From: Spirulina major PCC 6313
GTDB taxonomy: Bacteria > Cyanobacteriota > Cyanobacteriia > Cyanobacteriales > Spirulinaceae
Reading direction: 5' to 3'
Assembly: GCF_001890765.1 (NCBI RefSeq)
Contig: NZ_KV878783.1
Span: 2,192,695-2,256,694 of the forward strand
DNA length: 64,000 nt
Below the pieces are notes generated by a model. That model was not told where the DNA came from and searched no databases. It was given only the letters and a program-made list of their open reading frames with translations. Position 1 is the first letter of the stretch, and each line of letters begins with the position of its first letter. This document shows positions 50,041-59,431 of the stretch, piece after piece. Position numbers and translations under genes: made by a program.

Positions 50041-50359
50041 TATTACCACTAAGTTGTCCAGTCTTCTACCTTAAGAGTATCAACACGATTGAACTCGCGA
50101 GTGTTGTTAGTAAAACGAGATCTAACCTGAGCGCATGAGCTGCGATCCGCGTTGAGTATTGTTTGACGGCTTCACCGATAATTTCTAGCAGTTTGACGAT
50201 CGCGAGCAATTTCTCGCGGTTCTGCTGAAATTCCACGAACGATACGCCTTGCATGAACTGTTCAATCTCAGTGATCGCCCTGGCAATATCCTCCACAAAT
50301 GCACCGACAGAACGCGGATTTATAGGGGGATGGCCTCGGCTAGGATGCGATCGCGCCAC
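50041..50359 (-). pseudogene. hepT: Chimeric relic: HepT N-terminal part fused to VapC C-terminal part
   Basis: The first about 65 residues match HepT/DUF86 (AFVEDIARAITEIEQFMQGVSF, then KLLEIIGEAVK). From about 50150 the chain continues as IAAHALRLDLVL, which belongs to a VapC PIN toxin. A frameshift then leaves the VapC end TNNTREFNRVDTLKVEDW in another frame, stopping at 50050-50052. The HepT catalytic RxxxxH half is gone. A deletion joining two toxin genes, then frameshift, explains this. Not functional as either toxin. Confidence 0.8.
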
Positions 50360-50586
50360 TGGGGTTTTAAGCTGGGTTGCGTCACCACATCAACGGCCAA
50401 CCCCCACAGATGGCTAAGGTAGTCGCGCAGTTCAGACAGCATCCACAGGGTCGGCGCATTGCTGGTTTCGGTTTGTTCGCCCCGTGCATAGGAGCCAAAC
50501 ACGGCAATCTGAGTAATCCGAAAATGCTCTCGTAAATAGTCGCGGTGGGCTTGTATCTGGTCGCGCACCTCTTGCAGGGTTTTCAT
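50320..50586 (-). pseudogene. mntA: MNT nucleotidyltransferase antitoxin lacking its catalytic loop
   Basis: The 88-residue frame has the MNT start (RDYLREHFRITQIAVFGSYARGEQTETS), then jumps straight to APTLWMLSELRDYLSHLWG and VDVVTQPSLKPQWRDRIL. In the family, a DxD catalytic loop of about ten residues separates these blocks; here it is missing, in frame. The protein cannot perform AMP or nucleotide transfer to HepT. It overlaps the HepT relic by about 40 bases. It could still fold, but both partners look dead. Confidence 0.75.
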
Positions 50587-50614: not shown

Positions 50615-50705
50615 TAACCAAGGGGGGCGGGGTTATTCTTCCTCTACGCGATCGCCGAGGTAGAGTTTAACGAAAGGTTTGGCGGTGGCGGGGTTGAGGG
50701 GTTCA
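50615..50705 (-). pseudogene. Copy of the 3' end of the XRE gene
   Basis: The minus strand reads LNPATAKPFVKLYLGDRVEE and stop (50633-50635), near-identical to the end of the XRE protein at 51370. With an 18-bp identical stretch after the stop, the direct repeat spans 50615-50705 and 51352-51440. It bounds the HicBA cassette on the left, and the hicA stop lies at its edge. Confidence 0.85.
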
Positions 50706-50930
50706 GGACAGCAATTTGATCAAGTCGTCTTTACTGAGGGCTGCATCGCGCAGGATTTTCAGGAGGAGTCCTTTACCGAGAGTTTTACCGGCATGAGTCG
50801 GAACGGTGACAACACGCCCATCGGGGTGTTTGAGGCGAACATGACTCCCTTTTTGGCGAATGAGGTCAAACCCAATTTTTTGGAGGGCTGCCATCAATTC
50901 TGTTCCAGTAATCGGGGGAAGTTTTGGCAT
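50703..50930 (-). CDS. hicA: HicA toxin
   Basis: The 75-residue protein has the HicA fold: PITGTELMAALQKIGFDLIRQKGSHVRLKHPDGRVVTVPTH, where the GSH histidine is catalytic, followed by LGKGLLLKILRDAALSKDDL. HicA degrades mRNA. The start ATG overlaps the hicB stop by one base (TGATG). The gene order hicB-hicA is the less common arrangement. Confidence 0.92.
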   Translation of the reverse strand: MPKLPPITGTELMAALQKIGFDLIRQKGSHVRLKHPDGRVVTVPTHAGKTLGKGLLLKILRDAALSKDDLIKLLS

Positions 50931-51142
50931 CACACGACGACGGTTTGCACGCCAATGAACTCGTTCACTGAATCATCGTCCATTTCTTCTAGACAGAGTT
51001 CAATCACTTCGCGGATGTTGACCATCAGTTCTTCGATGGTTTCGCCTTGGCTGTAGCAAGCTTTGAGTTGGGGGACTTCGCCTACATACAGTCCATCTTC
51101 ATCGCGTTCGATGATCACGTAAAATTCTCGATTGGCTGGCAT
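50930..51142 (-). CDS. hicB: HicB-like antitoxin (short)
   Basis: From ATG 51142 the protein has 70 residues and matches the HicB core: FYVIIERDEDGLYVGEVPQLKACYSQGETIEELMVNIREVIELCLEE. It lacks the C-terminal DNA-binding domain of longer HicB proteins. It neutralises HicA. A small ORF ends eight bases upstream. Confidence 0.9.
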   Translation of the reverse strand: MPANREFYVIIERDEDGLYVGEVPQLKACYSQGETIEELMVNIREVIELCLEEMDDDSVNEFIGVQTVVV

Positions 51143-51147
51143 GAGGA

Positions 51148-51321
51148 TCACGGTTTGGGGGGTGAGAATTTTTGTCGCATCTTTTGGGCTTGGGCGAGGA
51201 TGCGATCGGTTTTTTGCAATATGGTTTTGCGGCGTTGTTGAAATTCGGCTAATTTTTGCTGACAGTGCTGTATCTCTTGCTCTGGGCTGAGGGTCTGTTC
51301 TGTGGCTTGCTCGTGATTCAT
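51148..51321 (-). CDS. Small coiled-coil-like ORF upstream of hicB
   Basis: A 57-residue frame with ATG 51321: helical, rich in Q, K and E (NHEQATEQTLSPEQEIQHCQ, then QKLAEFQQRRKTILQKT). It ends six bases before hicB and lies inside the direct repeats, so it travels with the cassette. No family is recognised. It may be a third component or chance. Confidence 0.5.
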   Translation of the reverse strand: MNHEQATEQTLSPEQEIQHCQQKLAEFQQRRKTILQKTDRILAQAQKMRQKFSPPKP

Positions 51322-51369
51322 CGGTGGGCTGCTTTGGTGTTTTCGCTATTTTAACCAAGGGGGGCGGGG

Positions 51370-51606
51370 TTATTCTTCCTCTACGAGGTCGCCGAGGTAG
51401 AGTTTCACGAAGGTTTTGGCGGCGGCGGGGTTGAGGGTTTTGAGGGCTTCGACGATCTGCACGACGGTTTCGGAGTTGGGGTCGCGGCTATCGTTAAACC
51501 ACCGATAAACGTTCGCACGTTCAATACCCAGTGTCTTAGCGAGACGATACTGGGTGATTTCGTATTGTTCGAGAGTTTGTTTTAGTGCTTGGTTGGCTCT
51601 GCCCAT
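51370..51606 (-). CDS. XRE-type helix-turn-helix protein
   Basis: The 78-residue protein has a helix-turn-helix (EQYEITQYRLAKTLGIERAN, VYRWFNDSRDPNSETVVQIV) and a tail LNPAAAKTFVKLYLGDLVEEE. It may be an antitoxin or regulator. A second copy of its last 22 codons lies beyond the HicBA cassette. It is divergent from the HNH nuclease gene (61-bp gap), which it could regulate. Confidence 0.85.
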   Translation of the reverse strand: MGRANQALKQTLEQYEITQYRLAKTLGIERANVYRWFNDSRDPNSETVVQIVEALKTLNPAAAKTFVKLYLGDLVEEE

Positions 51607-51667
51607 AGCCGTTAATGGTGTCAGATTTTAGGATAGAGTGAGCAAATAACAGGGGCAATGTCCAGCC

Positions 51668-52645
51668 ATGCCGATCCAGGATTTAGCATTCTACTGTAAA
51701 AAATTCGCAAAGCTGCGCGTAGACCGAGCGCGAGGCATTGCCCCCCATAAGCCCATCCTGTTACTCGCAGTTATGGAACTGATCGAGCGGGGAGAAATCA
51801 CCCAAAACCGCATCTATCCAAGCCCCGGATTGATTGCCGCATTTTTAAAATACTGGAGTTATTTAGGCTCCGAGAATCATCATTCTCAGATGTATTTACC
51901 CTTTTATCATCTCAAGGGTGATAAGTTTTGGCATCTTTGCACTAAACCCGGTTTAGAAGACATTCTCTCTAGTTTTAAGCCGAAAAGTTTAGAGACCCTT
52001 AAAAAGGTGGTGGTCTATGCGTATATGGATGATGAATTATTTTTATTAATGTGCGATCAAAATTCTCGTCACACCTTGATAAACACACTCATTGATGCTT
52101 GGTTTTCAGATAAGTCTGATCAGTTGCCAAAACTGTTTAAAGTGGATGCGTTTCAAACCTGGCAAAACCGATTAAAGGAAAGCGGTGGCACAATCTACCG
52201 TGTTGAAGACCTCGAAGATGAGCAGCAAAATATTGTCAGAGATGCGGCATTTCGGCGGGTCGTGGTATCCATTTACGAGCAACGCTGTGCATTGTGTCGG
52301 CTCCAAGTCATCGCGCCCAACGGTCAAGGCATCGTAGACGGCGCACACATCCGCCCCTTCTCAGAGTTTCACGACGATCGCATTGTTAACGGTCTCTCAC
52401 TCTGCAAAAACCATCACTGGGCCTTTGATCGTGGTTGGTTCAGTATCGATCCAGATGGTTATCGTGTGGTGGTTGCATCCGGTCTTCAGGAGGATTCACC
52501 GAACGGAGCCGGGTTGAAGTCATTCCACGGGGGCGCGATCGTACTTCCCAACCGACGCGATTATTACCCCGATCCGGTTGCGTTAGCGTGGCATAGACAG
52601 ATAAGATCTAAAGTAACCAAAAATTTTAGTAACGCTAACTTCTAA
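51668..52645 (+). CDS. HNH endonuclease, restriction-like
   Basis: The 325-residue protein has an N-terminal region seen in HNH restriction-type proteins (RARGIAPHKPILLLAVMELI). The C-terminal HNH domain has CALC and GIVDGAHIRPFSEFHDDRIVNG then LSLCKNHHWAFDRGWFSI. It probably cuts DNA, perhaps modified DNA. It stands alone without a methylase gene, next to the dnd remnant. Base composition is like the host, unlike the next two genes. Confidence 0.88.
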   Translation: MPIQDLAFYCKKFAKLRVDRARGIAPHKPILLLAVMELIERGEITQNRIYPSPGLIAAFLKYWSYLGSENHHSQMYLPFYHLKGDKFWHLCTKPGLEDILSSFKPKSLETLKKVVVYAYMDDELFLLMCDQNSRHTLINTLIDAWFSDKSDQLPKLFKVDAFQTWQNRLKESGGTIYRVEDLEDEQQNIVRDAAFRRVVVSIYEQRCALCRLQVIAPNGQGIVDGAHIRPFSEFHDDRIVNGLSLCKNHHWAFDRGWFSIDPDGYRVVVASGLQEDSPNGAGLKSFHGGAIVLPNRRDYYPDPVALAWHRQIRSKVTKNFSNANF

Positions 52646-52886
52646 GTTCAAACATAATAGAATATGAAACCTTCTATCTATGACAGTACAGCAATAAGTA
52701 GACCAGGCTTGAAATAGTCAACTATAATTCTGTTGGCAAATCAAGCTCAAGCCCTTGCCAGATAAGGAATACAGTCAAATTCACATTTTACAGTCTGCAT
52801 GGGCTTTTCTACCCCGACCTACTTAGCATCTTTTTAAAGAACTAAGAAAATCATACAGATACAACGTTACCAACAAAAAAATACAC
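52646..52886. other. AT-rich leader with possible structured RNA
   Basis: Composition drops sharply in GC here. A two-tier hairpin lies at 52707-52746 (GCTTGA/TCAAGC enclosing GTCAAC/GTTGGC). AAGCCC at 52749 can pair with GGGCTT at 52801, which runs into TTTT, like a terminator or structured leader of the ATPase gene. Confidence 0.45.
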
Positions 52887-54539
52887 ATGGAATTCATTAG
52901 AGTTGAAAATCTAAGATGCTTGTCCGACACAGGTAAAATAAGAATAAAACCACTCACTATATTGTTAGGGCAAAATAGTTCGGGAAAAAGTACATTTCTT
53001 AGAGCGTTTCCTTTATTCAGACAAAGCATTGAGGTAAGAACAAAAGGCCCTATTCTTTGGACAGGAGACTTTGTCGATTTTGGTGAATATAGTGATGTAA
53101 AACAATTTCAGAATGACCAAGGAAATATCGCGTTTTCGCTTGGATTTTTACTGGAAAACACAGCAATAAATGTCAATTTAATGGAAGATGAAGAAAGATT
53201 CTTTTTTTACGCATCCAGAATGTTGAATATTATTCAGTCTGGAGGCTTACTTCTTGAAGCAAGGATTAGCTTGATTGAAGATCATAACAAGGAATCAACA
53301 AAGATTCATGCACTACAAGTACATATTGGAGATAACTCAATTCAAATAGAAACCGATAAAAGTGGTGCAGTGCGTAAATTTTTAGTAAATTCCACAGATA
53401 TGTTAAGCTCTGATATACACTATGTTTTAACTGATAGAGATACTTGGTCTATATTACCTCAAATTGAAGAAAAATCTTTAGACAAGAAAGAAAAATCAGA
53501 AATCTCTGATTCAGCAGATTCACTAAATTTATTATATATTTCCAGAATAGTATCTCGTGGATTAACAAAGACAACAGAAAAGCTTATTGAAAAGGCAAAA
53601 AGTTTGGATAATTCTCGAACTGGATTAGAGAAAATAATAGAAATGGTTGTTTCTTTTGGAATTGGTGATTCTCAAAGTATGTTAGAAGATATCAAGAAAA
53701 TAAAAAATTGCACTAAGACATGGACAAAAAACACAAGCTCTTGGAGTCTTGAAAGCCAAGATTTTCGGACATTGAGAGACTTGATTATTGCCATGAGAGT
53801 TCCACTCATTCTAGAAACATTAGACCATAAAATCAAAGACTACTTTACCCATGTTATATATATCGGGCCTGTTCGAGCAACAGCTTTAAGGTTTTATAGG
53901 ACTCAAGCTTTTGCGGTTGAAGAAATTGATCCGCAGGGACAAAATCTTGCAATGTTTCTTCGTAATTTAAAAAAAGAAGAAATGAAAAGATTCAATAAAT
54001 GGACTGAAACAAATCTTGGTTTTTCAGTACATATAAATAATAGCAAAGGATTAGTTTCAGTTGAAATAAAAAATTCAGATGGCAATCAATTTAATATTGC
54101 GGATACTGGATTTGGATTTTCTCAGCTACTGCCAATTGTCACACAGTTGTGGTATCTTATCGATCAACCTAAAAGAAACACTCGGCGTAGGCACACTTTT
54201 CTTTCAAGAGATAAAATTATAACTCTTGCAATTGAACAACCAGAACTACATCTTCACCCTCGTCTTCATAAATTACTTGCTGACGTTTTTGCTCTTGCTG
54301 TCAAAGAATCGAGAAAACAAAATAGAAGCTTAAAAATATTAATAGAAACTCATAGTGAGGTACTAATTAACCGTTTAGGGATGTTAATAGAGAAAGATCC
54401 TGAGCTATCTAAGGAAGTTAATATAGTTTTATTTGAACCTAGTGATGATCCAATGAAAACTTCTGTTAGGACTACAGGTTTTACACGAGATGGGTTTCTG
54501 GAGAGCAGTTGGCCACTCGGTTTCTTTGATATGGAGTAA
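52887..54539 (+). CDS. DUF3696-like ABC-type AAA ATPase of a putative defence pair
   Basis: The 550-residue protein has Walker A GQNSSGKST (28-36) near the start, as in AAA_15/OLD-type ATPases. A Walker B region follows with LAIEQPELHLHPRLHKLLADVF (about 450), then LIETHSEVLINRL, and an end (SSWPLGFFDME) like DUF3696 proteins. Such ATPases sense phage or regulate a nuclease partner. The gene has no HIP1 sites and is much richer in AT than neighbours. Its partner follows 55 bp later. PARIS AriA is a related idea but not the same. Confidence 0.85.
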   Translation: MEFIRVENLRCLSDTGKIRIKPLTILLGQNSSGKSTFLRAFPLFRQSIEVRTKGPILWTGDFVDFGEYSDVKQFQNDQGNIAFSLGFLLENTAINVNLMEDEERFFFYASRMLNIIQSGGLLLEARISLIEDHNKESTKIHALQVHIGDNSIQIETDKSGAVRKFLVNSTDMLSSDIHYVLTDRDTWSILPQIEEKSLDKKEKSEISDSADSLNLLYISRIVSRGLTKTTEKLIEKAKSLDNSRTGLEKIIEMVVSFGIGDSQSMLEDIKKIKNCTKTWTKNTSSWSLESQDFRTLRDLIIAMRVPLILETLDHKIKDYFTHVIYIGPVRATALRFYRTQAFAVEEIDPQGQNLAMFLRNLKKEEMKRFNKWTETNLGFSVHINNSKGLVSVEIKNSDGNQFNIADTGFGFSQLLPIVTQLWYLIDQPKRNTRRRHTFLSRDKIITLAIEQPELHLHPRLHKLLADVFALAVKESRKQNRSLKILIETHSEVLINRLGMLIEKDPELSKEVNIVLFEPSDDPMKTSVRTTGFTRDGFLESSWPLGFFDME

Positions 54540-54594
54540 AAGCATGTAAAGAATCATAGTTAAGATATCGAATTTTATATAGTCACTAAAACCG

Positions 54595-55740
54595 ATGTTG
54601 ATCAACATACACAAATCTATATTGAATAATGTCTGTAGTTCTACCGTAAATTCACTTGAACTTTTAGCATGTGCTCATCGTGAAGGTAAACATGTAATCA
54701 TGGCTTCAAATCGAGAGACATTATCTTCTATCACTCAAATTCAAGAACTATCTTCTACAGCAATTGCCACTTACAAGAGAATTCTCTATGAGCTGACTAC
54801 TATAATGGTCTACTTTTCTATAGTTAAACGATATATTGAAGTAGTTTATCCTTGTTATTCAAGTTCGGTAAAAGAAGATTCTGGTAAAACCATAATTCAA
54901 GTTTCTCCCAGCTTTTTTAGCGATTCTAGTCAAATACAAAAGACTATATTTCTTTGTGAAAATTTAGATGATTCAAGATTCTATAAGTTCATTGTAAAAT
55001 GTTTTCTGATCCATAAAAATCAATCACGTGTAAAAATTACATTCAATGAAAGGGGAGGAGGAGGACATACAATTAGTCAAGAATTCAAAAAAATACGAGA
55101 CTCTAATCCTAAACAGTTAGGCATTTGTATCGTAGATAGTGATAAATTTTTCCCAAAAAGTAAGCTAGGAAATACAGCATGTACAATCAAAAAAGAGTGG
55201 AGACCTGAACATGATTTGCATGTATATTTATGTGTTTTGAAGTCTAGAGAAATAGAAAATCTAATCCCTTGTCAAATTTTCTTTGACTATATTTCAAAGC
55301 AACAAGGAGACAAAGATAGAGAGTCTTTTTTGAAATTTCTGAAATTCGTCAAAGATCAAAATATATCTGATATCAAAATGTTTATTGATATAAAATGTGG
55401 AACTAAATTATTTGATATTTTTGAATCTAAAGAAAAGCAATGGATATCCAAGATATTAAAGCTTCAGGGTGCTTCTTTCACCGCTCTTGACGAAAATTGT
55501 TTAAGTGCTTCAAGATGTCTGAAAAATCAATCTAAAGCATGTTCTTGCCTTATATGTCCACGCTTTGGCGAGCATACTATGGCCAACATAATTAACTATA
55601 TTGACAATGAAAGTAATCACAAGATATATCAGTCATGCAAAGCAGAATTAGTCCAAGATGGTGTAATAAATGAAGAATGGGAAGATATTGGACAATTAAT
55701 CTTAGACTGGTGTATAGCAACAGAAGGAAAAATCACTTGA
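54595..55740 (+). CDS. TOPRIM-like nuclease candidate with cysteine cluster
   Basis: The 381-residue protein is not recognised as a known family. Residues 117-225 show a TOPRIM-like pattern: E122 in IFLCENLDDSRFY, DxD at D181 and D183 (ICIVDSDK), and SREIENLIP at 218-225, as in DUF4435 and related OLD-type proteins. Residues 302-321 contain five cysteines (302, 308, 316, 318, 321), a possible zinc site. The N-terminal 110 residues are helical. Pairing with an ABC-type ATPase and AT-rich composition indicate a transferred two-gene system. Function is inferred. Confidence 0.65.
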   Translation: MLINIHKSILNNVCSSTVNSLELLACAHREGKHVIMASNRETLSSITQIQELSSTAIATYKRILYELTTIMVYFSIVKRYIEVVYPCYSSSVKEDSGKTIIQVSPSFFSDSSQIQKTIFLCENLDDSRFYKFIVKCFLIHKNQSRVKITFNERGGGGHTISQEFKKIRDSNPKQLGICIVDSDKFFPKSKLGNTACTIKKEWRPEHDLHVYLCVLKSREIENLIPCQIFFDYISKQQGDKDRESFLKFLKFVKDQNISDIKMFIDIKCGTKLFDIFESKEKQWISKILKLQGASFTALDENCLSASRCLKNQSKACSCLICPRFGEHTMANIINYIDNESNHKIYQSCKAELVQDGVINEEWEDIGQLILDWCIATEGKIT

Positions 55741-55752
55741 TGTTGTGAATAA

Positions 55753-56187
55753 ATAGAATCGAAAGTCGAAGAAAAACACGAATTTGAAGACAGCTTGCCC
55801 CGGATTTATGCCGAAAGCACCGGCGAACCCTTCCCCTTTCCCGAAGGCGAAACAGCGCGGCTCTTGGGAACCGAAGAATGGTAAGTCCTCGAAGAAATTT
55901 GCACCGATGCCATGCACCTAGAACTGATGGCCAAACTCCTCGACACCGAGCGGAAATATCGCACCAAAGGCAAGCGAATCGGGATTTTCGATGACCTAGA
56001 GAAATGTTTTCACACCAGTTCCCGCACCGAAGCCGAAGCCATCCAACAGGCCCAAGATCGCTATGCCCTCAAAGGTGCGATCGCTTCCGGAGACCTCCAC
56101 ACCGTCCGCCAGCTTACCCTCAACCACGCCCCATCTAACAACAAACCCACCACCTGGGGCGACGCAAAATTCGGTAAAAAATCGTGA
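55753..56187 (+). pseudogene. dndC: Truncated dndC with internal stop
   Basis: The frame reads ESKVEEKHEFEDSLPRIYAE, then TARLLGTEEW, a TAA at 55882-55884 where a glutamate codon is expected, and continues as HLELMAKLLDTERKYRTKGK and a charged tail. This is the C-terminal part of DndC, the PAPS-reductase-like sulfurtransferase partner of DNA phosphorothioation. The N-terminal catalytic part is absent, replaced by the AT-rich module ending at 55740. Its TGA overlaps the dndD GTG start. Confidence 0.85.
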
Positions 56188-58199
56188 TTTTCCAACGCCT
56201 AACCCTGCAAAACTTTGGCCCCTATGCCGGTTGCCAAACCCTCAACCTCGCCACCGATGCCACCCAGCCGATTATCTTGATCGGCGGCATGAATGGCGGC
56301 GGCAAAACCACGATCATGGATGCCCTGCGCCTCGTGTTGTACGGTCAACGCGCCCAATGTTCTAACCGGGGCAACCTCGCCTACAGCGACTTTTTAAACC
56401 AGTGCATTCATCACCACACCCCACCCCGCGCCGAAGTTGCGATTGAACTGGTGTTTGAACACGCCCTAATCGGTGAGCCGGTGCATTATCGCCTGCGTCG
56501 GGCGTGGGAAAACCACGCCACCCCAAAAGAAACCCTCAGCGTTTTTACCACCCATCTGGAGACACAAACCGAAATTCCCGATCAAGCCTTGGCGAAAATT
56601 TGGGACGAACGCATTGAAGATTTATTACCCTTGGGAATTTCTAATTTATTCCTCTTTGATGGGGAGCAAATTAAAGAACTGGCCGAACAGGAGACCCCGC
56701 CCCCCGATGTGATTAATGCGATTCAATCCTTGCTGGGGTTGGAGTTGCCCGATCGCTTGGGGTTGGATTTGAAAATACTGCGCGATCGCAAACAAAAAGC
56801 GATCGCCCAACAGGACGAACAAGACCAACTCCACCGCCTCGAAACCGAAATCGACCAACACCAACAGGCCTATCAAAAAGCCTATCAAGACCTCGGCAAC
56901 CTCCAAAACCAAATCGACAAAGCCGCCAACGAATTAGAGATCGCCACCCAGATGTTTAACATTCGCGGCGGTGAAATTAGTGCCCAACGCGCCACCCTCG
57001 AAAGCCAACTCCAGCAACTCAACCAAGAAGCCCAACACCACCAAGATCACCTCCGCCAATGGGCCGCCCAAGTTCTCCCCTTGGGGCAGATTGCGCCCCT
57101 CTTAGAGCGAGCGCGGCAACAGGGTCATGGGGAATTGAACGCTGCCCAAGTTGCGATCGCCCACCAACAGATCAACGACCACGATCGCGCCCTCCTCGAC
57201 TTCGCCCAAACCCAAAATATTCACCCCGAATCCTTACAACAACTCCGGGACTTTATCACCCAAGAACAGACGAAACGGGAAAGCGCGATCGCCCAGATTC
57301 AGCCCTATTTAAACCTCGATGCCCAAACCCTCCAACGCCTCGATTACCTGCTTAAGCACCAGCTCCCCCACGCCCAAGCAGAGGTGAAAACCCTTTGCGA
57401 TCGCCTCGAAGTCGTCGCCATTGAAATCGACAACACCCAGCGCCAACTGGCCGCCGCTGCCACCCCAGAAGAATACGCCCAACTCGGCGCGACCCTCAGC
57501 CAAGCCGCCGCCCATCACGCCACCCTCACCGCCGCCCACCACACCCAAACCCAAACCGTCAAACACCTGCGCGACACCCTCAACACCAGCAAAGCCCAAT
57601 TGCTCAACTACAGTAATGCGATCGTCTCCCGGCAAAATGATCAGCACATTTTAAAATCTATCGATCGCGTTCAAAACACCCTAATTGAATTTCGCGATCG
57701 CCTCAAACTCCGCAAAGTCGATCAGTTAGAATCCGCCGTCACCGAATGTTTTCGCTATCTCCTCCGCAAAACCGACTTCATTAGTCGCGTCACCGTCGAT
57801 ACCGAAAAATTTACCCTCACCCTCTACAACACCACCGGCCAAACTATCCCGAAAAAACGCCTTTCCGCCGGAGAAAAACAAATCCTCGCCACTGCCTTTC
57901 TCTGGGGCCTCGCTCGCGTTTCCGGTCGCCATTTACCCGTCGCCATTGATACCCCTTTGGGCCGCCTTGATTCTTCCCATCGCCACAATTTAATTGAGCG
58001 TTATTTCCCCGTAGCCAGCCATCAAGTGATCCTCCTGTCCACGGATACGGAAATCGGCGCGATCGAAGTCGAACAACTGCGCCACAACCAAACCATCACG
58101 CGAGAATACCGCATTGACTACGATCCGATGGAACGGAAGAGCGCGATCGCGCCGGGGTATTTTCCCAATCTAGATCGCGTCACCACCCCCAAACTCTAG
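56184..58199 (+). CDS. dndD: DNA phosphorothioation ATPase DndD
   Basis: The 671-residue SMC/Rad50-like ATPase has Walker A GGMNGGGKTT (34-43), a long coiled coil (about 190-520), the signature LSAGEKQILATAFLWGLAR, and PVAIDTPLGRLDSSHRHNLIERYFP as Walker B. DndD acts with DndC and DndE in sulfur placement in DNA. GTG start overlaps the dndC stop (GTGA). It looks intact though dndC and dndB are not. Confidence 0.95.
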   Translation: MIFQRLTLQNFGPYAGCQTLNLATDATQPIILIGGMNGGGKTTIMDALRLVLYGQRAQCSNRGNLAYSDFLNQCIHHHTPPRAEVAIELVFEHALIGEPVHYRLRRAWENHATPKETLSVFTTHLETQTEIPDQALAKIWDERIEDLLPLGISNLFLFDGEQIKELAEQETPPPDVINAIQSLLGLELPDRLGLDLKILRDRKQKAIAQQDEQDQLHRLETEIDQHQQAYQKAYQDLGNLQNQIDKAANELEIATQMFNIRGGEISAQRATLESQLQQLNQEAQHHQDHLRQWAAQVLPLGQIAPLLERARQQGHGELNAAQVAIAHQQINDHDRALLDFAQTQNIHPESLQQLRDFITQEQTKRESAIAQIQPYLNLDAQTLQRLDYLLKHQLPHAQAEVKTLCDRLEVVAIEIDNTQRQLAAAATPEEYAQLGATLSQAAAHHATLTAAHHTQTQTVKHLRDTLNTSKAQLLNYSNAIVSRQNDQHILKSIDRVQNTLIEFRDRLKLRKVDQLESAVTECFRYLLRKTDFISRVTVDTEKFTLTLYNTTGQTIPKKRLSAGEKQILATAFLWGLARVSGRHLPVAIDTPLGRLDSSHRHNLIERYFPVASHQVILLSTDTEIGAIEVEQLRHNQTITREYRIDYDPMERKSAIAPGYFPNLDRVTTPKL

Positions 58200-58317: not shown

Positions 58318-58650
58318 ATGAATCAAAAACTAGCGGAATCATTAGCGGGGGCAGTGGCATCCTTGTCGCCGGACGACTACAACACCTTTCAAACGTCATT
58401 CATTCGGCAAGCTATTCAAAAAACGCCGGGTGTCTGTGGGGGTCATGCCCGGATTCGGAATACACGCATTCCAGTTTGGACAATCATTTCGTTACAAAAA
58501 CAAGGGGCAGATGCACAGGAAATTCTGACAAACTTTCCCAGCCTAACACCGTTTGATATATTAATCACCCAGTCCTATTACGATCAAAATCAAACAGAAA
58601 TTGATGATTTACTTGTAGCGTATCATCATGACGATGAATCGGGTATTTGA
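58318..58650 (+). CDS. DUF433 antitoxin
   Basis: The 110-residue protein has the DUF433 helix-turn-helix core GVCGGHARIRNTRIPVWTII, then LQKQGADAQEILTNFPSLT and an acidic tail. DUF433 proteins are antitoxins of DUF5615 toxins. The 3' end overlaps the next gene by 23 bases. The pair lies inside the dnd operon. Confidence 0.88.
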   Translation: MNQKLAESLAGAVASLSPDDYNTFQTSFIRQAIQKTPGVCGGHARIRNTRIPVWTIISLQKQGADAQEILTNFPSLTPFDILITQSYYDQNQTEIDDLLVAYHHDDESGI

Positions 58651-59029
58651 ATTATATGCCAACGAAAATTTGGCTTTCGTGATGGTTGAACAATTACGCC
58701 ACTTGGGTCATGACGTGCTCACCTCTCTAGATGTAGGCAATGCCAATCGAGCGATCGCAGATGACGATGTTTTAAGGTATGCCACCACGAATCAACGAAT
58801 TGTTGTGACCTTCAATCGTGATGATTTTATTCAACTCCACAAAAGCGGCATCAGCCATGCCGGTATCATCATTCGTAAAGATGATCGCGCCTATATTGAA
58901 CAAGCGATCGCTTTGCATGAGTTTCTTTGTCAGCAGCAGAGCATGGAAAACCGTTTAGTCCGTGTTAAACAACGCAATCAACCTAAAACCCGAAACCCAA
59001 TTTTTACCATTCAAGAATATTCACGCTAA
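58628..59029 (+). CDS. DUF5615 PIN-like toxin
   Basis: The 133-residue protein has ELYANENLAFVMVEQLRHLGHDVLTS, ADDDVLRYATTNQRIVVTFNRDDF and SHAGIIIR, the DUF5615 PIN-like pattern. It probably is a nuclease toxin. The second ATG at 58634 is an alternative start. It sits between dndD and dndE and is likely a late insertion. Confidence 0.88.
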   Translation: MTMNRVFELYANENLAFVMVEQLRHLGHDVLTSLDVGNANRAIADDDVLRYATTNQRIVVTFNRDDFIQLHKSGISHAGIIIRKDDRAYIEQAIALHEFLCQQQSMENRLVRVKQRNQPKTRNPIFTIQEYSR

Positions 59030-59056: not shown

Positions 59057-59431
59057 ATGCAGCCACCGATTCACCGGATTCAACTCAGCCAAACCGCCAA
59101 AGATCATCTGATCAAACTGAAGCGGATCACGAAAATTGATCAATGGAATAGTCTCTGTCGCTGGGCCTTCTGTCGCTCCCTGGCCGAACCCCATCCGCCG
59201 TCCCCGGTGCCGATTCCCGCCGATAGTAATGTCGAGATGACCTGGGCAACCTTTGGCGGCGAGGATGCTGAGGTGCTGCTGATTGCCCTCAAGCAACGTT
59301 GTTTTGAGGATGGCTTTAGCCTTGACCCGGAGACCCTGGCGCAACAGTTTCGCCTCCATCTCCATCGCGGTATTGGCTATCTAGCAGGTGACCCGGATTT
59401 GAAAGGGATTCAGGACTGGGTGCAGCGTTAG
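59057..59431 (+). CDS. dndE: DNA phosphorothioation protein DndE
   Basis: The 124-residue protein has IQLSQTAKDHLIKLKRITKI, WNSLCRWAFCRSLAEP and a C-terminal RLHLHRGIGYLAGDPDLK. These match DndE, which is thought to bind nicked DNA in the modification complex. It is separated from dndD by the DUF433/DUF5615 pair. With dndB and dndC damaged, this is an orphan remnant unless other copies exist. Confidence 0.9.
   Translation: MQPPIHRIQLSQTAKDHLIKLKRITKIDQWNSLCRWAFCRSLAEPHPPSPVPIPADSNVEMTWATFGGEDAEVLLIALKQRCFEDGFSLDPETLAQQFRLHLHRGIGYLAGDPDLKGIQDWVQR

Follow-up and report, generated by a model that had tools for sequence, protein, structure and literature searches.

A likely anti-phage gene pair of split OLD type, with separate ATPase and predicted TOPRIM nuclease genes, in Spirulina major PCC 6313

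In the PARIS system an OLD-type ATP-binding cassette (ABC) ATPase, AriA, and a TOPRIM nuclease, AriB, are encoded by separate genes; the ATPase is described as sensing a phage protein and the nuclease as cutting tRNA (PMC12839542, PMC12409363), and the detection rule given in PMC9122126 requires DUF4435 in AriB and AAA_15 or AAA_21 in the ATPase. The OLD nucleases of Class 1 and Class 2, such as P2 Old, TsOLD, BpOLD and GajA, contain the same two domains, which are carried by a single gene in Class 1 and, in Gabija, by one protein that is accompanied by the gene for the GajB helicase. PDC-M55, a candidate system of the PADLOC collection, consists of an ATPase followed by a TOPRIM-like partner, while Menshen, to which the NsnB protein belongs, is a three-gene system. 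A stretch of 64,000 nucleotides from Spirulina major PCC 6313 (contig NZ_KV878783.1, positions 2,192,695 to 2,256,694; hereafter the window, whose numbering is used for its features) contains two adjacent genes, here called A and B, that are best read as a novel form of the split ATPase and TOPRIM design already known from OLD and PARIS, and that likely form a two-gene anti-phage system of split OLD type.

The two genes and their products

Gene A (52887..54539, + strand) encodes a protein of 550 residues and gene B (54595..55740, +) a protein of 381 residues; both open reading frames are intact and lie on the same strand with a gap of 55 bp. A preliminary description of the locus, made from the DNA letters alone, had likewise proposed two adjacent genes in one direction. 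The product of A is an OLD-family ABC ATPase, an assignment well supported by the Walker A, Walker B and OLD-like features of its sequence. It matches Pfam PF13175 (AAA_15) with E 5e-28 and 99 bits, and PF13304 (AAA_21) with 67 bits; the ABC ATPase of the preliminary description is thus confirmed, but its label of DUF3696-like is not, since no match of A to Pfam DUF3696 is listed at E ≤ 1. When a profile of 15 diverse A proteins (alignment A7) was compared with PDB sequences, the best match was the Thermus OLD nuclease TsOLD (6p74, E 1.2e-10). The Walker A motif, GxNSSGKS, is found at residues 28-35 (52968..52991, +), with G28, G33, K34 and S35 present in 15/15 aligned A; the Walker B region, IEQPE, spans residues 449-453 (54231..54245, +), with I449, E450, Q451 and E453 in 15/15; a C-terminal WPxGFF motif occupies residues 542-547 (54510..54527, +), where W542, P543, G545 and F546 are again found in all 15. 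Altogether the segments invariant in these proteins are Walker A, a DxGxGxSQ segment, the IEQPELHLHP segment of Walker B, ETH and the C-terminal WPxGF. Among the PADLOC models, NsnB gives the top score on A (E 1.5e-43, 148 bits), followed by PDC-M55A (3e-39, 133 bits) and AriA (3.9e-33).

The product of B could be placed in no Pfam family, the sole match listed having E 0.18, and comparison with PDB sequences returned no relative and chance-level matches only. The one PADLOC model that matches it at E ≤ 1 is PDC-M55B (E 4e-5, 21.5 bits), over 107 residues of the TOPRIM region. An AlphaFold model obtained from an 11-row alignment (A6) has a predicted local distance difference test score (pLDDT) of 81.2 and a predicted template modelling score of 0.73; a model from an earlier five-row alignment (A1) had a pLDDT of 43.7 and was not used. 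Rows 1-12 of the VIA-align comparison of this model are all OLD, AriA-AriB, retron Eco2 or GajA entries, and include BpOLD residues 391-591 (Z 8.8; 3.8 Å, 175 residues), XccOLD (Z 7.6; 4.0 Å, 169 residues), TsOLD (Z 7.5; 3.8 Å, 135 residues) and, in the sixth row, chain D of AriA-AriB, taken as AriB (Z 6.6; 4.8 Å, 161 residues). OLD and GajA are also the top PDB rows in Foldseek, with E 0.02 or worse. Profile comparison by hhalign aligned the B family with PDC-M55-like partners (P 1.9e-7, 94%) and with the TOPRIM domains of single-chain OLD-like proteins (P 1.5e-5, 79%), while the control comparison with the ATPase family gave P 0.24 and 0.2%. Independently of structure, B and the C-terminal part of the single-chain OLD-like proteins are matched by the PDC-M55B model along overlapping stretches of its profile. 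In the same cyanobacterial order PDC-M55B picks up single-chain ATPase-TOPRIM proteins of this OLD-like kind, about 550 residues long, at L076, L078, L080, L081, L083 and L084.

The fold, the profile comparisons and the catalytic residues all point the same way, and the C-terminal two thirds of B are best understood as a predicted nuclease of the OLD TOPRIM type, a well-supported assignment. The TOPRIM domain and C-terminal helices correspond to residues 113-375 (54931..55719, +) by the BpOLD alignment, and are preceded by an N-terminal domain, residues 1-112 (54595..54930, +), recognised from the predicted order of strands and helices. This order may resemble the initial part, about one half, of a PIN domain; a profile of the domain gave chance-level matches only against PDB.

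In BpOLD, metal A is bound by E400, D455 and D457 and metal B by E404, T506 and E508, with K562 as catalytic lysine, and the TOPRIM motifs are described as a glutamate after the first strand, a glycine after the second and a DxD (PMC6755086). These motifs are found in B as E122, G157, D181 and D183 in all of the 15 diverse sequences of alignment A3, and all seven catalytic positions of BpOLD have a conserved counterpart, in the same order. The proposed equivalents are E122 and D126 for E400 and E404 (54958..54972, +; each 15/15), D181 and D183 of a DSD for D455 and D457 (55135..55143, +; each D 15/15), E219 and E221 of REIEN for T506 and E508 (55249..55257, +; 14/15 and 15/15) and K267 for K562 (55393..55395, +; 15/15); for the ligands of the second metal and K267 the equivalence is drawn by motif order and conservation, not by coordinates, with D in place of E404 and E in place of T506. 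The E, DxD and REIEN patterns, already recognised as TOPRIM-like in the preliminary description, are kept across phyla. A cluster of four cysteines, C302, C308, C316 and C318 (55498..55548, +), is present in 8/8 cyanobacterial rows of A3 and in none of the 7 others; it is a possible metal-binding finger.

Kinship with described systems

PDC-M55 looks like the nearest catalogued relative and a sister of the A-B pair. The two share the order of ATPase and TOPRIM-like partner, and both window genes match its models; however, nearer members (L068-L070) reach 48-54 bits for B, and L069 reaches 231 bits for A, the window pair being lower on both. Among 10 further B proteins, the PDC-M55B model matches five at E ≤ 1e-3 and three at 0.004-0.04, and two have no match. 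A sister group is suggested because the B alignment covers the TOPRIM core only. The preliminary description, according to which the partner matched no recognised system, thus went too far, as the pair has this catalogued sister and repeats the OLD-ABC and TOPRIM design of PARIS. Literature searches found no paper naming PDC-M55 and, under other terms, no description of the A-B family. TOPRIM-linked OLD-ABC dyads were reportedly listed by Krishnan et al. 2020, as cited in PMC12839542, and the novelty of the A-B family is judged apart from that listing.

The pair might instead be a divergent PARIS, in which A would be AriA and B an AriB whose divergence puts it out of reach of the DUF4435 model, sensing anti-restriction proteins such as DNA mimics and cleaving host tRNA. 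Gene order and division of labour are indeed the same, with OLD-ABC ATPase and TOPRIM nuclease on separate genes; the AriA models of PADLOC match A, which also has both of the ATPase domains, AAA_15 and AAA_21, named as alternatives for the gene beside the TOPRIM gene in the rule of PMC9122126, and AriB is among the structural neighbours of B. However, PF14491 (DUF4435), the detection criterion in the account of PMC9122126, gives no match at E ≤ 1 in any of the 11 B tested, both PDC-M55A and NsnB outscore AriA in PADLOC on the A protein of the window, and BpOLD aligns with the B model better than AriB does (Z 8.8 versus 6.6). Moreover, about 112 residues precede the TOPRIM core of B, whereas chain D of AriA-AriB aligns from its residue 19, and the cysteine cluster of cyanobacterial B is a further difference. 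PARIS as a strict label is excluded because DUF4435 is missing in 11/11 B, and a PARIS changed beyond recognition by its domain model appears unlikely.

With the OLD nucleases of both classes the pair has in common the two domains and the full two-metal set, lysine included; unlike in those, the domains are placed on two genes in every locus read. Class 1 OLD and Gabija are excluded because of this two-gene organisation, and no GajB-type helicase lies beside the window pair, which is flanked by an HNH gene on one side and by the dndC remnant and dndD on the other. The likeness to Menshen consists in the NsnB model, with which A scores highest; B, conversely, is matched by PDC-M55B only among the PADLOC models at the threshold given above.

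Pairing, distribution and proposed role

A profile search of 388 genomes of the same cyanobacterial order gave B matches in 17, of which 16 were retained; G576 was dropped, its match (E 7.6e-4) being one 222-base stretch in a frame of 683 residues, and its 20-kb region L044 having no A or B match. In all of the 16 retained genomes A lies directly upstream of B, and both genes are full length in 13, while in G649 A is cut by the contig end. The search for A in the 388 genomes, which scored at most three candidates per genome and leaves remoter ATPases uncounted, gave 15 matches at E ≤ 1e-50, all within the B-bearing set. The distance matrices of A and B are correlated (Mantel r 0.84, 13 pairs), a value reached in 0 of 5000 permutations; the two genes co-evolve.

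Outside cyanobacteria A is directly upstream of B in 7/7 loci read, two of which are on plasmids, of Planococcus and Exiguobacterium; a further Planococcus plasmid copy of B, 99.8% identical (an eighth record), stands outside this count. The plasmid scans returned one record at first and then three with the Planococcus protein as query. The pair also occurs in four IMG/VR contigs and in the Pseudomonas filamentous phage 62-2, where it lies beside the phage repressor and B is annotated as a putative OLD family nuclease. Single-protein scans of genome contigs and viral contigs found no close relatives, whereas alignment-based searches did; further viral scans added no records. Thus neither of the outcomes that the preliminary description had named as fatal to its proposal was found, since the predicted fold, the profiles and the catalytic residues all indicate an OLD-type TOPRIM core for the 381-residue protein and since the homologues adjoin each other in every locus read.

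Two observations concern single loci. On the Exiguobacterium plasmid (L065, 5009-8017) the annotation makes the ATPase the C-terminal portion of a 1,002-residue protein, whose N-terminal part resembles, by eye, a replication protein; this is either a real fusion or an artefact. In two different cyanobacterial genomes a XisI gene (PF08869) adjoins the pair (L035, 9104-9427; L041, 8311-8637).

In a P2-like prophage (L061) the pair is located between the replication gene A/gpA (PF05840) and the portal and terminase genes (PF04860, PF06056), and no near DNA match to this copy was found in E. coli complete genomes. The interval between gpA and portal is a hotspot of defence genes according to Rousset et al. 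(PMC9122126); in P2 it houses old and tin. From this location, from the occurrence in phages and plasmids and from kinship with known systems, a defence role is probable.

The occurrence on plasmids and in phages makes addiction conceivable, and the pair could be a toxin-antitoxin or element-stabilising module, or else a DNA-repair pair, rather than a phage defence; a function in the cell cycle is reported for one OLD-like ATPase, archaeal Cran1 (PMC12796447). Against this, the presence of the pair is patchy (16/388 genomes of the order), unlike that of a housekeeping repair pair, one copy sits in the P2 old/tin hotspot, and deletion of either PARIS gene is given as non-toxic in PMC9122126. 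Such a role is quite improbable in our view.

In the anti-phage system that we consider likely, A would be an ABC ATPase that forms a complex with B, holding or gating it, and B a TOPRIM nuclease of the two-metal kind that brings an N-terminal domain of its own. A signal of infection would be sensed by A, leading to activation of B, which would then cut nucleic acid. The target would be RNA (host tRNA or another kind) if B acts like the PARIS effector, or DNA if it acts like OLD and Gabija; cleavage would stop phage growth, most likely through a halt of the infected cell. Both the gating of B by A and the cutting of nucleic acid by B are proposed by analogy with PARIS.

Several findings weigh against this reading of the pair. 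VIA-align Z values of 6-9 are middling on the tool's own scale, rows 7-12 (Z 6.3-5.9) tie with the highest-ranked unrelated entry (a designed Rossmann protein, Z 5.8), and the Eco2 row, at Z 6.3, has a root-mean-square deviation of 11.7 Å. Foldseek against PDB gave no match at E ≤ 0.001, the best being XccOLD at 0.023, and a library of viral fold models held no useful match to the B model. The hhalign comparison of the PDC-M55-like partners with the OLD-like TOPRIM domains gave a weak result (P 6.7e-4, 27%), and the single-chain OLD-like domains carry DSE where B has DSD. Pairing is not intact everywhere, as G417 retains only the end of A together with an open B, and G586 has stops in both genes (the last B row of alignment A2, from this genome, is a cut piece). 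A neighbour scan covered 78 open reading frames of 90 to 1300 residues within 5 kb of nine cyanobacterial pairs (one longer frame was dropped, and L030, L032, L036 and L037, which are the same sites as L031 and L033, were omitted together with the short contig L038); among the PADLOC families listed (25 of 74), none matched more than 2 of the 78 proteins, so that no defence-island setting was demonstrated for the cyanobacterial loci. By eye, several of the cyanobacterial copies stand among housekeeping genes. The cell-cycle role of Cran1 mentioned above belongs on this side as well.

More tentatively, the A-B pair may found a class of split OLD immunity of its own, set apart from both PARIS and PDC-M55 proper, in which the extra N-terminal domain and the cyanobacterial cysteine finger would confer a particular trigger or substrate. 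Such a class would travel as a cassette of no more than two genes, in cyanobacteria, on Bacillota plasmids and in P2-like and filamentous phages, with one copy placed in a dead phosphorothioation locus. The family combines a complete-looking catalytic site, steady pairing and a copy in the old slot of P2, and yet Pfam has no family for B; it would show the control of DUF4435-less TOPRIM effectors by a separate ATPase, and the residues for mutation are now named.

The dnd locus and the surroundings of the pair

In the window the pair is preceded by a gene for an HNH endonuclease with similarity to phosphorothioate-DNA restriction endonucleases (51668..52645, +; PF13391 E 9e-12, NF045808 E 9e-33, the latter at 113.6 bits, under the 180-bit cut-off). 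Downstream are a remnant of the dndC 3' end, interrupted by a single in-frame stop (55765..56187, +; recognised by tblastn with the dndC of the relative L111 and by TIGR03183 positions 361-446), which corresponds to residues 377-525 of a 526-residue relative, the last 28%, then dndD (56184..58199, +; 671 residues, TIGR03185 E 2.7e-187, above cut-off), DUF433 and DUF5615 genes, and dndE (59057..59431, +; PF08870 E 4.6e-42). Both dndD and dndE are intact. Beyond the remnant, neither DndC nor DndB has a match at E ≤ 0.001 in the genome, which is rated 99.9% complete; because of this and of the stop in dndC, the modification system is very probably dead, the pair filling the slot upstream of dndC.

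This position invites the explanation that the pair is a restriction module working with the surrounding Dnd phosphorothioate system, as it lies between the HNH gene and the dnd genes, and diverse nucleases are described as recruited to Dnd neighbourhoods (PMC10853773). The explanation was rejected and has hardly any probability left, given the broken dnd locus and the lack of dnd genes near other pairs: HNH, dndC, dndD and dndE had no match by tblastn at 1e-3 in any of 28 other records (27, partly overlapping, around this pair or related ones, and L044, which lacks the pair), while the same queries were positive in the window and in L111. The pair is therefore not a conserved neighbour of dnd genes among these records, and its dnd setting looks incidental; the insertion into a dnd locus stated in the preliminary description holds for the place, between HNH gene and dndC remnant, the locus itself being broken and dnd genes being absent at other pairs.

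In L111 the gene order is HNH, a small gene on the opposite strand, a LAGLIDADG gene, dndC, dndD and dndE. The LAGLIDADG endonuclease (PF03161; L111, 2201-3175) lies between HNH and dndC, thus in the slot taken by A-B in the window, which suggests that this slot is an insertion-prone spot. A similar dndC tail seems, by eye, to lie beside a broken dndD in L110 (G544). Two genomes of the same genus, 81-82% complete, have no match to B, dndD or HNH at the thresholds used, so that the island varies within the genus. Small toxin-antitoxin-like genes are also present around the locus, at 50069-50586, 50933-51358 and 58318-59029, namely HepT-like and nucleotidyltransferase genes (both short), a HicB-like antitoxin, and the DUF433 and DUF5615 pair.

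The preliminary description had called the two genes strongly AT-rich and free of HIP1 sites, and both statements hold. The GC content is 33.3% for A and 31.2% for B, about 32% for the pair, compared with 53.2% for the window. Counting the octamer that we take to be the HIP1 motif, 127 occur across the window and 0 in 50649-56076; at the rate seen in the remainder of the window, 52646-55752 would contain about 6.7, an expectation that low GC alone lowers, and the HIP1-free stretch also takes in the neighbouring HNH gene. GC content of the pair is below that of the flanks in 18/18 loci measured, by 0.007 (L062) to 0.26. AT-richness is thus a trait of the A-B family and supports transfer, though it is not specific to this site.

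No flanking repeats marking the end of an element were found around the pair, and Rfam gave, for 51500-56500, a single chance-level match, under its gathering score. A palindromic repeat of about 130 bp (52695..52825, strand not assigned) lies 61 bp upstream of A and is treated here as context rather than as an established part of the system. Recognised from its inverted ends (TAAGTAG...CTACTTA), its folding and its genome matches, of which there are three more with 71-74% identity (G000:C2 1325249-1325382, 714668-714802 and 2332090-2332227), it looks like a miniature inverted-repeat transposable element, and it could carry or alter the promoter of A.

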